Origin: a virus
IMG/VR virus record: IMGVR_UViG_3300047300_000367
Span: 1-23,917 of that record
Reading direction: 5' to 3' (one strand)
Length of the DNA: 23,917 nt
Positions within the stretch are counted from its first letter, which is position 1. Each line of letters opens with the position of its first letter. Positions 15,897-19,911 of this stretch are shown in pieces. The notes beneath the pieces are model-generated. The model did not search any database. It was not told the DNA's origin and saw nothing but the letters and a program-made list of their open reading frames with translations. Made by a program: the position numbers and the translations under genes.

Positions 15897-15972
15897 AGAG
15901 ACACTTAAGTACACAAGTAGAGAAACATGAAGTGAACTAGAGTGTTCACTACTTGTGTACTTAGCTGTCTCT
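15897..15972. repeat. Central long palindrome of the end region
   Basis: A perfect 14-bp inverted repeat (AAGTACACAAGTAG at 15907-15920 with 15949-15962) is extended by AGAGACA (15897-15903) pairing with TGTCTCT (15966-15972) across a 3-by-3 internal loop. Within the loop, GTGAAC (15932-15937) pairs with GTTCAC (15944-15949), sharing a base with the larger stem. Such a DNA palindrome can extrude as a cruciform. In T7, hairpin-ended intermediates are known in concatemer processing, and a similar role here is an inference from position. Confidence 0.85.
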
Positions 15973-16424: not shown

Positions 16425-16464
16425 ATGCACAACAGTCCACCTAACATGCGCCTATGCACAACAG
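16425..16464. repeat. 11-bp direct repeat ATGCACAACAG
   Basis: Two exact copies at 16425-16435 and 16454-16464 stand 29 bases apart, just before the iteron array. Confidence 0.7.
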
Positions 16465-16466
16465 GG

Positions 16467-16560
16467 GATCACCGACAGATCACCGACAGATCACCGACAG
16501 ATCACCAGAGGCGAGAAGCCCCTAGTAGCTCACCGACAGATCACCGACAGATCACCAGAG
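16467..16560. repeat. Iteron array, 11-bp unit GATCACCGACA
   Basis: Unit copies begin at 16467, 16478, 16489, 16500 (variant ending AGAG), 16528 (one mismatch), 16539 and 16550 (variant ending AGAG). Units 3-4 and 6-7 repeat at a 50-base distance, and CCCCTAGTAGCTCAC occurs at 16519 and again at 16579, so a higher-order duplication is present. The 11-bp period is about one DNA turn. T7 has short CCTAAAG arrays (SRL and SRR) beside its terminal repeats, and this array lies in the equivalent region. A replication or packaging protein site is the likely function. Confidence 0.85.
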
Positions 16561-16721
16561 GGGCAGGCTAAGGGGCTTCCCCTAGTAGCTCACTATTCGG
16601 GCTTAAGTGATAGACAAGATGAGAAGCCCCGCGCGTCTTTGCACCTCACCAAAGCAAGGCACTAAATCACGACCAAGTTAGTCGCTGATTCGTTTTCAGG
16701 GATTCCGGGGACAGGAAAGGA

Positions 16722-17289: not shown

Positions 17290-17302
17290 CCCGCTAGTGG
17301 GG
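17290..17302. promoter_or_regulatory. Quasi-palindrome, copy 3 (CCCGCTAGTGGGG)
   Basis: Exact consensus copy, placed directly at the base of the hairpin before the GP88-like gene and sharing its GGGG. Confidence 0.5.
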
Positions 17303-17340
17303 ATGCAAGAGGGGCTTAGGTTAGCCCCTGCTGCATCCCC
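17299..17340 (+). promoter_or_regulatory. Strong two-tier hairpin before the first early gene
   Basis: GGGGATGC (17299-17306) pairs with GCATCCCC (17333-17340), and inside it AGGGGCT (17310-17316) pairs with AGCCCCT (17323-17329) around a six-base loop. The total is 15 bp with a 3-by-3 internal loop. It ends 20 bases before the ATG at 17361, leaving GGAAAGGG free as ribosome site. T7 early mRNA is cut by RNase III at stems of this kind, and a similar processing or 5'-protection role is possible. There is no T tract, so it is not a standard terminator. Confidence 0.6.
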
Positions 17341-17360
17341 AATATGGAAAGGGCTTCCCA

Positions 17361-18038
17361 ATGTTTTACGACGTGAAATTGACCGTTAAGGCCGCGCAAG
17401 AGCTTGCGGGGAAGGTTAGCGAAGGCAATGGCAAAATGCCGGGTTCAACCTTCGCTATCAGCGCAAAAGAGTGCAAGGTGGGCGGCAAGCTGGCCACGGT
17501 AAAGGGTTCGGTCTGTGACCGCTGCTATGCCCTCAAGCTGCAAAAGCTGCGTCCCTCTGTGGATCAAGGGTGGACGGCTAACTATCTCAAGGCCAGCCAC
17601 GCAATCGACACAAACCCGCAAGCGTGGGCCAATGCCGCCGCTTTCCAGATCAAGCGGATTGCCGCTAAGTCTGGCCAGCCCTTCCACCGTTGGTTCGATA
17701 GCGGTGATCTGCAATCCGTGGCCATGCTGTCGGCAATTTGCCTTGCCGCGACCATGACGCCAGAGGTCAAACATTGGCTGCCCACGCGGGAAGCCAAGAT
17801 CGTTAAGGACTATCAGGCGCAAGGCGGGGTGATCCCTGCTAACCTGATTATTCGGATTAGTGCCACCATGATTGGCGACAGGCCCGTGTCTGGCCATGCC
17901 AATACTTCCACGGTCCATCGCAAGGGGCAAGAGGTTACAGGCCACGCTTGCCCCGCGTCCACCCAAGGCAATCAATGCGGGGATTGCCGCGCCTGCTGGT
18001 CGCATACCGTGGCCAATGTGAGCTATCCGCTTCACTAA
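17361..18038 (+). CDS. GP88-family phage protein, cysteine-rich, function unknown
   Basis: The 225-residue product has the pattern I know from the phage 'gene product 88' family: KMPGSTFAISAKECKVGGKL, then VKGSVCDRCYALK. Cysteines at 38, 52 and 55 in the N-terminal third, and at 197, 206, 209 and 212 near the end (NQCGDCRACW), suggest a metal or iron-sulphur site. The biochemical role of the family is not established to my knowledge. It is the first gene after the end region, so it is probably made early. GGAAAGGG precedes the start and a strong hairpin lies before that. Confidence 0.8.
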   Translation: MFYDVKLTVKAAQELAGKVSEGNGKMPGSTFAISAKECKVGGKLATVKGSVCDRCYALKLQKLRPSVDQGWTANYLKASHAIDTNPQAWANAAAFQIKRIAAKSGQPFHRWFDSGDLQSVAMLSAICLAATMTPEVKHWLPTREAKIVKDYQAQGGVIPANLIIRISATMIGDRPVSGHANTSTVHRKGQEVTGHACPASTQGNQCGDCRACWSHTVANVSYPLH

Positions 18039-18056: not shown

Positions 18057-18066
18057 AAGGCTTATA

Positions 18067-18110
18067 GGTGACCAGCCTTAAGGGGCTGGCATCCCATGCG
18101 CCTTTGCATG
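18067..18110 (+). promoter_or_regulatory. Two-hairpin leader element, copy 1
   Basis: GGTGACCAGCC opens the element. Hairpin A is CCAGCC (18072-18077) with GGCTGG (18084-18089). A fixed CATCCC linker follows. Hairpin B is CATGC-GCCTTT-GCATG (18095-18110). The ATG of the next gene is 20 bases downstream, after AGAGGAAA. In hairpin B the second pair is A-T here and G-C in the other copies. Confidence 0.75.
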
Positions 18111-18130
18111 TTCACAAGAGGAAACCCACC

Positions 18131-18223
18131 ATGTTTGAAGCTCTGGAAATTGCCCTTGGGGGCTTGGCGGTCTTCGCCTTGCCTATCGCCCTGCTGTTCC
18201 TTGGGTATGGGGCTGGCCTATGA
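18131..18223 (+). CDS. 30-residue single-pass membrane peptide
   Basis: The product is MFEALEIALGG followed by LAVFALPIALLFLGYGAGL: a short acidic start and one hydrophobic segment over residues 8-28. AGAGGAAA lies eight bases before the ATG, and a copy of the repeated leader lies upstream. The stop TGA overlaps the next ATG (ATGA at 18220-18223), the hallmark of a coupled pair. A tiny early membrane protein could act on the host envelope, block superinfection or serve as a leader peptide for the next gene. No function can be assigned. Confidence 0.7.
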   Translation: MFEALEIALGGLAVFALPIALLFLGYGAGL

Positions 18224-18471
18224 CCGCTTTCGCCCATGTGACCGACGAAAAGACGCGGGCTATTCTGCAATCGCCCGACCCTTCCCGCCGTGAGCTGGAA
18301 TATGCCCTGAACCATGCCACGGCCTGCCAGAGCGCAGACCTTGACGATGAAGACGTGAGCTTTGCCCTCTGGAATAACCGCGCCGTGGCCTTGGATCAAT
18401 CAAGGCGGGCTTGGCGTGAAGGTCAATTCATGGCCTGCCGCGACCTTCTAGGCCGCTTCTGGAATACCTAA
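18220..18471 (+). CDS. Small early protein, function unknown
   Basis: This 83-residue acidic soluble protein is rich in predicted helix (DEKTRAILQSPDPSRRELEY, then SFALWNNRAVALDQSRRAWR). Two short arginine and tryptophan patches suggest a binding surface, perhaps helical hairpins. It begins in an ATGA overlap with the 30-residue membrane peptide, so the two are probably co-translated. I do not recognise the family. Position in the early block between leader elements suggests a host-takeover role, which is inference. Confidence 0.75.
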   Translation: MTAFAHVTDEKTRAILQSPDPSRRELEYALNHATACQSADLDDEDVSFALWNNRAVALDQSRRAWREGQFMACRDLLGRFWNT

Positions 18472-18479
18472 GGCACATC

Positions 18480-18527
18480 GGTGACCAGCCTTGCTTGCGT
18501 GGCTGGCATCCCGTGCGCCTTTGCACG
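18480..18527 (+). promoter_or_regulatory. Two-hairpin leader element, copy 2
   Basis: Starts nine bases after the preceding stop. Hairpin A is CCAGCC (18485-18490) with GGCTGG (18501-18506) and a ten-base loop that differs in sequence and length from copy 1. Hairpin B is CGTGC-GCCTTT-GCACG (18512-18527). GAGG and the ATG at 18548 follow. Confidence 0.75.
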
Positions 18528-18547
18528 TCAACCTGAGGATTTCCAGA

Positions 18548-18727
18548 ATGATGGCCCGTTATTGGATCAACGCACCTTCGACCCTACAGCCATGTCACCA
18601 ATTCCACGGCCTGAATGTCTTGGCGGATGAAAGCCCGCCTGAGATTGTCACGGTCTACCCTGTTAGTGGTGACACCGTGTCTCTACGCATCCCGCGCCGC
18701 TTTCTATCCCGAGGCTGGCGCGTTTAG
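18548..18727 (+). CDS. Small early protein, function unknown
   Basis: This 59-residue basic protein starts with MMARYWINAP (a second ATG follows at 18551). The middle contains PEIVTVYPVSGDTVSLRIPR, which looks beta-rich, like a small barrel. No family is recognised. A copy of the two-hairpin leader lies directly upstream, and TGAGGAT at 18533-18540 could be the ribosome site at somewhat long spacing. A third copy follows its stop, so the gene sits as a separate cassette between leader elements. Confidence 0.68.
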   Translation: MMARYWINAPSTLQPCHQFHGLNVLADESPPEIVTVYPVSGDTVSLRIPRRFLSRGWRV

Positions 18728-18734
18728 GCCCATC

Positions 18735-18783
18735 GGTGTCCAGCTTTGCCTGTCAAGGCTGGCATCCCGTGCGCCTTTGCACG
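18735..18783 (+). promoter_or_regulatory. Two-hairpin leader element, copy 3
   Basis: Hairpin A is CCAGCTTT (18740-18747) with AAGGCTGG (18755-18762), including one G-T pair, longer than in the other copies. Hairpin B is CGTGC-GCCTTT-GCACG (18768-18783), here followed by TTTTT, so this copy alone could also act as a terminator. A strong TTGGAGGAAA ribosome site and the ATG at 18805 follow. Confidence 0.75.
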
Positions 18784-18804
18784 TTTTTCCTTGGAGGAAA
18801 CATC

Positions 18805-19068
18805 ATGACCACCATCGCCACCCGTCGCGCTATTGTCCGTGCCACCCTGACCGCTGCCGAGGGCCGCTTCATCGGCCTGTCGTTCATTAAGCAGAACGGC
18901 AAGCGTGACAGCATGAATATCCATCCGGACGCTACCGCCAAGCTCAAGGCGAACCATTCCAAGCCCAACCTAATCCCCGTCTATGAAATGAATCGGGGCA
19001 TCCGCACGGTGAACCTTGATACCGTCACATCGGTGCGGATTGACGGGCAAGAGCTTCGCTTTTCCTGA
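18805..19068 (+). CDS. Small beta-rich early protein (SH3-barrel-like phage family)
   Basis: The 87-residue product has the pattern 'xFIKQNGKRDSMN...NLIPVYEMNRGIRTVNLDTVTSVRIDG', which resembles small phage proteins with an SH3-like barrel (a pattern of the form F-K-K-x-G-x-x-R...VYDM...YRxxNLDTI). The role is unknown. Related proteins are widespread in phage accessory blocks. GGAGG at 18793-18797 lies seven bases before the ATG, and leader copy 3 lies above it. Similarity is judged from the motif only. Confidence 0.75.
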   Translation: MTTIATRRAIVRATLTAAEGRFIGLSFIKQNGKRDSMNIHPDATAKLKANHSKPNLIPVYEMNRGIRTVNLDTVTSVRIDGQELRFS

Positions 19069-19078
19069 CCCCATACCA

Positions 19079-19091
19079 CCCCACAAGTGGG
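19079..19091. promoter_or_regulatory. Quasi-palindrome, copy 5 (CCCCACAAGTGGG)
   Basis: Reverse-orientation copy: its complement reads CCCACTTGTGGGG, closest to copy 4. It lies between the stop at 19068 and the kinase gene. Confidence 0.5.
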
Positions 19092-19099
19092 TTTTGTCA

Positions 19100-19123
19100 G
19101 ACAGGCTGCTAGTCCGGCCTGTC
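19100..19123 (+). promoter_or_regulatory. Hairpin upstream of the kinase gene
   Basis: GACAGGC (19100-19106) pairs with GCCTGTC (19117-19123) around a ten-base loop. It occupies the place of the two-hairpin leader seen before the three previous cassettes, but its sequence differs and no clear second hairpin is seen. Confidence 0.5.
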
Positions 19124-19161
19124 CCCAAAGATCACTTGCAGCGCATCAAGGGGGTGCATCA

Positions 19162-19911
19162 ATGCTCAATCAGAATACGCTTGGCACCTTCATGACCAAG
19201 CCCGACACCTTTACCGGGCCAGGGCTTGGCGAGGGCTGTTTCGGCTCCGTGACCGAGGCCACCATTCCGGGCTTTGTCGTGAAGACCGTGGAAAACTTTT
19301 GGTTTGATGGCTGGTTCCCGTGGGCGCTGTATTGCATGGCGCATCAGGGTGAGGTGGGCATCCCCAACATTCTGGCGCTGCGCCTTGACTTCACCAAGGG
19401 TAAGCTGTGGGCGCTGATGGAAAAGCTCGAACCTGTGCCGTTCGATCAGCGCCCGCCTTGCATCCAGACTGACGCCGAGGGCTTCAAGTATCGCGTAGAA
19501 AGCGTCTTTGGTCGCCTCAAGTCCATGCCGGGTCACCTCAATTCCTTGATGGCTGCCCTGCCTGACCAGGCGTTCCGCGTCGATCTGCACCACTACAATT
19601 ACATGATGCGGGGTAAGAAAATGCTCATGACCGATCCCCTGATCCTGATGAATGAAGGGGGAAATAGCTGGCTCAAGGAAAGTGGCCCCAAAGGGAAGCT
19701 GCTGGCCCTGCAATGGGCGCGTCAGACCCTCGACCACTTCAACGCAGCTAATGACCCCCGCGTGGTCGTGGAGGGGTCACCAGAGGACCGCATGGCTGCG
19801 GTTCGGCTGGTGATTGAGGAAGACGAGGCGGAGAAGAAACGCCGCGATGATCTCCACAAGCGTGTCACCACAGACCTTCTTCGCAAACTTTTCTCGGAGC
19901 TTCGGAAATGA
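19162..19911 (+). CDS. Protein kinase, T7 gp0.7-like
   Basis: Translation from ATG 19162, preceded by AAGGGGG, gives 249 residues. Kinase landmarks in order: a Gly-rich loop GLGEGCFGSV, lysine in PGFVVKTV, then YCMAHQGEVGIPNIL, which parallels T7 0.7 FCRMYQGRPGIPNVY. RVDLHHYNYMM occupies the catalytic-loop place (T7: SFDMHSGNIMF), and MLMTDPL parallels T7 YITDPV as the metal-binding Asp. T7 0.7 phosphorylates host RNA polymerase and other proteins and shuts off host transcription. The C-terminal 60 residues are charged and helical. It is shorter than T7 0.7 (359 aa), lacking the long basic tail. Confidence 0.88.
   Translation: MLNQNTLGTFMTKPDTFTGPGLGEGCFGSVTEATIPGFVVKTVENFWFDGWFPWALYCMAHQGEVGIPNILALRLDFTKGKLWALMEKLEPVPFDQRPPCIQTDAEGFKYRVESVFGRLKSMPGHLNSLMAALPDQAFRVDLHHYNYMMRGKKMLMTDPLILMNEGGNSWLKESGPKGKLLALQWARQTLDHFNAANDPRVVVEGSPEDRMAAVRLVIEEDEAEKKRRDDLHKRVTTDLLRKLFSELRK

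Follow-up and report, generated by a model that had tools for sequence, protein, structure and literature searches.

The window, by which we mean the whole 23.9-kb stretch of DNA that was analysed, is a fragment of a T7-like phage whose large terminase is related to autographivirus terminases. After the terminase come a leader region, then a GP88-family gene, a set of small early genes and an ORF resembling the T7 gp0.7 kinase, and the window also encodes a MarR-like regulator, an integrase and ThyX (Table 1). The kinase-like ORF, whose likely start is ATG 19162, lies directly 3′ of three small cassettes; its similarity to T7 gp0.7 is weak, and the PHROG annotation of T7 gp0.7 mentions RNase III. 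Just 3′ of the terminase, at 15897-15972, is a 28-nt inverted repeat with 89% complementarity and a 20-nt spacer, while short tandem repeats of GATCACCGACA, at 16455-16572 and so ahead of the first early gene, possibly lie near a genome end.

Table 1. Coordinates of the element copies, their parts and the neighbouring features in the window
Feature	Coordinates	Strand	Basis or remark
Interrupted hairpin of unrelated sequence, 5′ of GP88 gene	17298..17341	+	10 bp, 2x2 loop, 7 bp; fold -40.9 kcal/mol, z -4.2
GP88-family gene, 225 aa, 5′ of copy 1	17361..18038	+	PF17338, E 1.1e-17
Copy 1	18058..18110	+	sequence; covariance-model score 61.8 bits; predicted MFE fold is P1 form
Copy 1: P1 5′ strand; GGTGA; P2	18058-18065; 18067-18071; 18072-18078 with 18083-18089
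Copy 1, 3′ side: CATCCC (core 3′); P1′	18090-18095; 18096-18103
Copy 1 hairpin B (CATGC / GCATG), 5′ arm common to P1′	18095..18110	+	sequence; register and enrichment
30-aa ORF 3′ of copy 1, overlaps next gene (ATGA)	18131..18223	+	no family match
83-aa ORF, ends at copy 2	18220..18471	+	no family match
Copy 2	18471..18527	+	covariance-model score 57.3 bits; predicted MFE fold is B form
Copy 2: P1 5′ strand; GGTGA; P2	18471-18478; 18480-18484; 18485-18490 with 18501-18506
Copy 2, 3′ side: CATCCC; P1′	18507-18512; 18513-18520
Copy 2 hairpin B (CGTGC / GCACG)	18512..18527	+	sequence; register and enrichment; predicted fold
59-aa ORF between copies 2 and 3, ends at copy 3	18548..18727	+	no family match
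Copy 3	18726..18783	+	covariance-model score 53.3 bits; predicted MFE fold is P1 form
Copy 3: P1 5′ strand; GGTGT; P2	18726-18733; 18735-18739; 18740-18748 with 18754-18762
Copy 3, 3′ side: CATCCC; P1′	18763-18768; 18769-18776
Copy 3 hairpin B (CGTGC / GCACG)	18768..18783	+	sequence; register and enrichment
87-aa ORF 3′ of copy 3	18805..19068	+	phrog_2267 (function unknown), E 1.3e-9
Interrupted hairpin of unrelated sequence, 5′ of kinase-like ORF	19084..19138	+	7+5+9 bp; fold z -2.1
ORF weakly similar to T7 gp0.7 protein kinase family	19087..19911	+	phrog_15752, E 2.9e-7

The gaps 5′ of ATG 18131, ATG 18548 and ATG 18805 hold the same element, as a sequence-only reading of this DNA had proposed. 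The window contains exactly three copies of a 28-nt core (18084-18111, 18501-18528 and 18757-18784), against none in 100 shuffles of it, a repeat search recovers the same family, and G000 holds no further copy beyond the three. The genes between the copies, which that reading had called unrelated, show no mutual relation in family searches. The same reading had described two independent hairpins, A and B, on either side of a fixed CATCCC linker. The details it gave are present, in that the second pair of hairpin B is A-T in copy 1 and G-C in copies 2 and 3, and the loop of hairpin A varies in length. The architecture must be redrawn: CATCCC is the 3′ side of a core, paired opposite GGTG, and a further helix that had been missed, P1, has a strand in common with hairpin B, so that the two cannot coexist.

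A covariance-model search, a check that the earlier reading had recommended, finds the element in related and unrelated phages, and the changes in these further copies keep the stems; the outcome that would have refuted that reading did not occur. A 21-nt pattern led to L001, a contig of a related phage, in which three copies are laid out as in the window and one of them has an entirely different inner stem. A looser pattern, GGTGNCCAGC...GCTGGNATCCC, matched 64 viral contigs, the majority of them true, and a second pattern with another inner stem added about a dozen carriers. Anchoring on the downstream gene yielded 4 loci only, which exposed variants of the core. In total, the covariance model assigns copies to some 55 viral contigs and to six named phages: the Roseobacter autographiviruses CRP-114, CRP-227 and CRP-361, the Paracoccus siphophage Pben1, and phages Mae-JY02 and Mel-JY03, which are listed under Microcystis. 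Accepted copies under model R1 all score at least 38 bits and the remaining matches at most 28 bits, the latter being mostly partial or diverged copies (e.g., L194:2504, L233:2350 and L238:7839). In one of these, at 2504-2548 on the minus strand of L194, the 5′ strand of P1 and GGTG are seemingly lost, with P2 and the 3′ side kept. Whole-record searches give 1-7 copies per contig, and many phages have a single copy; the densest array found is in a 4.8-kb contig (L117, 1853-4774), where each of seven copies lies 5′ of a small gene. No element was found by the model in the GP88-carrying relatives L006, L007, L008 and L084. Pattern matches without a flanking stem or start-site context, L088, L098, L107, L126 and L129 among them, were dismissed as chance.

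The element does not appear to be a host repeat or a prophage-wide sequence, as the CCAGC pattern has only 3 matches, judged chance-like, in 398 Pseudomonadota genomes. Bacterial genome contigs gave 4 bare pattern matches, and in three of those genomes the model found nothing among 150 candidates scored per genome, a weak negative. A plasmid origin was likewise rejected, the matches being partial only and one of them falling within a traI gene. Two recorded Microcystis phages (L152 and L154) carry the element and have proteins in common with other carriers; a relative of a Paracoccus prophage fragment also matches both, so their listed cyanobacterial hosts may merit a check.

Among 72 distinct copies, an ORF stop lies no more than about 35 nt upstream in 94%, and a start with a Shine-Dalgarno motif lies downstream in 88%. 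Both are present in 85%, as compared with 2% of random same-strand positions and 0% of antisense positions, which bears out the earlier placement of the element on the sense strand before gene starts. Median distances are 10 nt from stop to element and 33 nt from element to start, with the stop codon as far as 31 nt off in some copies. The earlier statement that the element begins soon after a stop needs extending rather than discarding, since P1 reaches at least 8 nt upstream of GGTG and thus places the start of the element at or near the preceding stop. Its end had been put about 20 nt before the next start, a figure that is correct from the end of hairpin B and incorrect from the last C of CATCCC, which lies ~35 nt from the ATG. 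Sense-strand bias and the frequency of G-U pairs together place the function of the element in RNA.

The element is one long hairpin, made up of an outer helix P1, a C·C mismatch, a near-invariant core (GGUGN / YAUCC) and an inner helix P2. Bases 5′ of GGTG are complementary to bases 3′ of ATCCC, as in UGACCUUC-C-GGUG...AUCCC-GAAGGCCA and many other versions, and because the search that assembled the collection did not require flank pairing, this complementarity is independent evidence for P1. The consensus structure obtained with RNAalifold from 41 diverse copies runs, from outer to inner, through P1, a 1x1 mismatch, G13-C59, G14-C58, a bulged U57, U15-A56, G16-C55 and a bulged N17 into P2, which is closed by a mostly 4-nt loop. 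The 1x1 mismatch next to P1 is C·C in 64/72 copies. Pairing in P1 stands at 94% at position 8 and at 53%, 36% and 43% at positions 9-11, near background, while P2 is 7 bp long in 51/72 copies and the distance from the mismatch to the P2 loop is 11 bp in 51/72 copies. The drop after position 8 and the 7-bp P2 imply a helix of nearly constant length, with ~20 stacked positions.

Selection on RNA pairing, which the sequence-only reading had claimed, is borne out by the wider collection. With the structure held fixed over the 41 rows, two-sided changes are seen at 15/15 stem pairs, and the covariation score is 0.687 against 0.226 in shuffled and at most 0.161 in slid alignments, with 0/500 shuffles reaching it. 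Paired cells amount to 92.2% of the 41-row alignment against 66.7% in shuffles, a percentage biased upward because most of the rows were picked by a stem-requiring descriptor. P1 lay outside that descriptor, and the descriptor leaves the number and variety of two-sided changes unexplained. Compensatory changes over independent copies therefore exceed both the shuffled and the slid controls, and the element is under selection as RNA. The three window copies had been offered as direct evidence of this on their own; it is the wider set of about 70 distinct copies that makes the evidence strong.

GGUG and AUCC do not vary over the 41 aligned rows, and rare natural variants elsewhere show what this core is. 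In L213 it reads UGUG/AUCA (G-C to U-A), in CRP-361, L049/L191 and L192 it reads C-GC...A-GC-C (G-C to C-G), and in L238 it is C-GC-UUA/CUU-GC-C (G-C to C-G), with pairing kept in all three types. These compensated changes show the core to be a helix, and the C·C mismatch beside P1 is retained in the variants. The same variants bear on a docking model in which GGUG and AUCC, with P2 looped out, pair with GGAUCACC at the 3′ end of 16S rRNA. All 8 of the 8 invariant bases fit the complement and the element lies 5′ of start codons, yet the cores of L213, CRP-361, L049, L192 and L238 break the complementarity and keep the stems, and little room is left for docking when P1 and P2 are both closed, so that we regard this model as very improbable. 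Core types have also been exchanged, as the CRP-361-type core sits at the same gene site as the common core of CRP-114 and L190, and L190 has the same P1 start, GGTTTGCAT, as CRP-361. Such a swap at one gene site is what could be expected if the element acted purely as DNA, as a cassette boundary or as the recombination hinge that the earlier reading had floated. The compensatory changes and the G-U pairs run counter to this, as do the sense-strand bias and the fixed spacing; nothing favours it over an RNA role, and we give it almost no credence.

Hairpin B adds a second conformation. The bases RTGCGCCT serve both as the downstream strand of P1 and as the 5′ arm of hairpin B, making the two helices mutually exclusive. 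Both in the window and in many copies elsewhere, the 4-6 bases that directly follow the core can pair downstream rather than upstream. Among 57 copies with distinct downstream sequence, 65% have a helix of 4 bp or more that starts exactly at base +1 after the core, against 18% in the control, and 42% have one of 5 bp or more, against 7%. These percentages are approximate, as 3 of the 57 copies were subsequently discounted as doubtful and some of the rows are related to one another. There is no clear excess over control in these copies for a start at offset 2 or beyond, and about one third of copies have no convincing hairpin B. The change of A-T to G-C in hairpin B yields a G-U pair when read in P1. 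An intrinsic terminator was considered and rejected, hairpin B having 4-6 bp and a T run following only copy 3 among the window copies. In a further copy, at 746-774 on the minus strand of L001, the hairpin B loop is enlarged by a self-complementary-looking insert (AGGGC...GCCCT), and the GTGC/GCAC closing stem is retained.

The exclusivity of P1 and B is the foundation of the main rival to the reading that we prefer, a translation-coupled switch in which a ribosome finishing the upstream gene would cover the 5′ strand of P1 and so favour B, the long hairpin forming otherwise, with initiation at the next gene altered as a result. In the window copies the two folds are close in predicted energy, either one being the minimum depending on the copy (Table 1), and the stop codon lies a median 10 nt before GGTG. 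However, the Shine-Dalgarno site of the window copies is left free in both states, copies without B occur and some stops are up to 31 nt away; we consider this switch unlikely, though worth keeping in view. The position of hairpin B would also be compatible with a cut near the core by the RNA itself, that is, with a small self-cleaving ribozyme in which two variable helices surround an invariant core where protein-free cleavage takes place. Two covarying stems about such a core fit this description and no partner protein would be needed, but no Rfam ribozyme matched, the core is mostly paired with two single-base bulges, and the variants replace it, leaving a ribozyme with very little probability.

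The carriers divide into several groups whose protein contents overlap little. BLASTP revealed no protein family common to all of them at E 1e-4, a search that could miss a fast-evolving protein and in which some records are fragments; the widest families, an integrase for example, reach 7/29 records. Because the carriers have no common protein, the acting factor is probably host-derived. A protein-binding site is nonetheless a live alternative, in which a host RNA-binding protein or a fast-evolving phage protein would read the core and control translation or stability of the early genes. Identity of GGUG and AUCC throughout the aligned rows goes beyond the generic need of a nuclease site and, with the strand-specific position, suits such a protein, whereas the lack of a common phage protein and the replacement of the core in rare variants do not, and the idea strikes us as improbable to much the same degree as the translation-coupled switch.

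Our preferred reading, put forward tentatively and at somewhat less than an even chance, is that the element is a cis-acting site where a host endonuclease specific for double-stranded RNA, most likely RNase III, cuts the early multi-gene transcript; processing, one of several roles named at the outset, thus stands as a serious candidate. Before cleavage, the ~8-bp P1, the mismatch, the core and the 7-bp P2 would stack into an imperfect hairpin of about two helical turns. The nuclease would cut its 3′ side close to the C·C mismatch, at a distance of ~11 bp from the P2 loop, which would leave the P2 stem-loop to protect the new 3′ end of the upstream mRNA. The downstream mRNA would start with P1′, which, where hairpin B exists, would refold into it, freeing the two pieces and capping the new 5′ end ~35 nt before the next ATG. 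A hairpin B in register with the first base after the core is what would be expected of a 5′-terminal stem-loop produced by a cut there, and such a stem-loop is an established means of stabilising bacterial mRNA (Emory et al. 1992, cited in PMC3997798). Long interrupted hairpins in two other early gaps, at 17298-17341 and 19084-19138, would be expected if all early gaps were processed.

Covariation in two stems, compensated core pairs, a near-constant helix, the register of hairpin B and a sense-strand position between stop and start all point, if tentatively, to processing, as do, with the same reserve, the lack of a common carrier protein, the T7 R-site plan, the other gap hairpins and the gp0.7-like ORF. 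Against it stand a core (GGUG / AUCC) whose conservation goes far beyond the known requirements of RNase III, the roughly one third of copies without a convincing hairpin B and the single copy in many phages. A broader account, which could hold but which we think somewhat less probable than its opposite, is of a portable, uncatalogued, bistable RNA device in unrelated phages, including those of Rhodobacterales. One strand would serve two exclusive helices, P1 before and hairpin B after some event, so as either to split the early message into separately capped units or to sense upstream translation, and in both cases the device would depend solely on a host factor reading a new internal-loop motif. 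The function is directly testable, as some carriers have been isolated and their hosts are known (Roseobacter CRP-114, CRP-227 and CRP-361; Paracoccus Pben1), and the covariance model is itself a tool to locate early-gene cassettes in phage genomes whose genes are unrecognisable.

Among catalogued RNAs the element has no counterpart. Rfam yields 0 matches when its gathering thresholds are applied, and a search of six loci up to E 1 is likewise negative; one sub-threshold match, to ASpks (24.3 of 52 bits), overlaps copy 1. The element is thus a new, well-supported structured RNA family that is absent from Rfam. Like the SAS and ESAS of cluster K mycobacteriophages, with which it had first been likened, it is a repeat tied to the starts of non-structural genes, and about half of the cluster K SAS carry an upstream inverted repeat (PMC3203893). 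It differs in that the SAS has an invariable 13-bp sequence and sits at the start site itself, while the element ends ~33 nt earlier and keeps structure more than sequence; the SAS sequence GGGATAGGAGCCC has 0 matches with up to 2 mismatches allowed, and the element is not an SAS.

The put antiterminator RNA of HK022 is likewise structured, found in early phage operons and independent of a phage protein. A put-like RNA acting on host RNA polymerase would account for an element in the early operons of unrelated phages that have no common protein. However, put is ~70 nt long, has two stem-loops and occurs once per operon, 0 to about 270 nt from the promoter (PMC9378689), whereas the element is one interrupted hairpin with an alternative fold, present in 1-7 copies per contig, each just 5′ of a gene. 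The Pben1 copy, moreover, is ~3 kb downstream of the repressor gene. Copy number and position thus disfavour antitermination, to which we assign only a very small chance.

The closest resemblance to the processing that we favour is found in the early RNase III sites of T7 (R0.3, R0.5, R1, R1.1 and R1.3), which are repeated hairpins between autographivirus early genes with a lower stem, an internal loop and an upper stem. Several of these sites lie 25-40 nt 5′ of an ATG, and R0.5 has a stop codon in its lower stem. The element shares their structural plan, being a two-helix hairpin with an internal loop or mismatch between the cistrons of an early operon. It is not a member by sequence, as the R-site sequence (AAGGTC...GTGGCCTTTATGA) has no match in the window and model R1 detects no R site in the T7 early region. 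In contrast to the T7 sites, its lower stem has an exclusive alternative hairpin, its core is conserved and unrelated phages carry it. R1.1, with its 4/5-nt internal loop, is cleaved by the RNase III of both E. coli, an enterobacterium, and Sinorhizobium, the latter enzyme reported to favour longer duplexes than the former (PMC6121014). This preference for length, together with the difference in sequence and the negative model result, counts against processing. The element may nevertheless work like the T7 R sites, a functional parallel that we hold with the same caution as processing itself; if it does, T7-style cutting of early messages would have arisen in, or passed between, unrelated phages beyond those of enterobacteria, with a means to cap both new ends built in.
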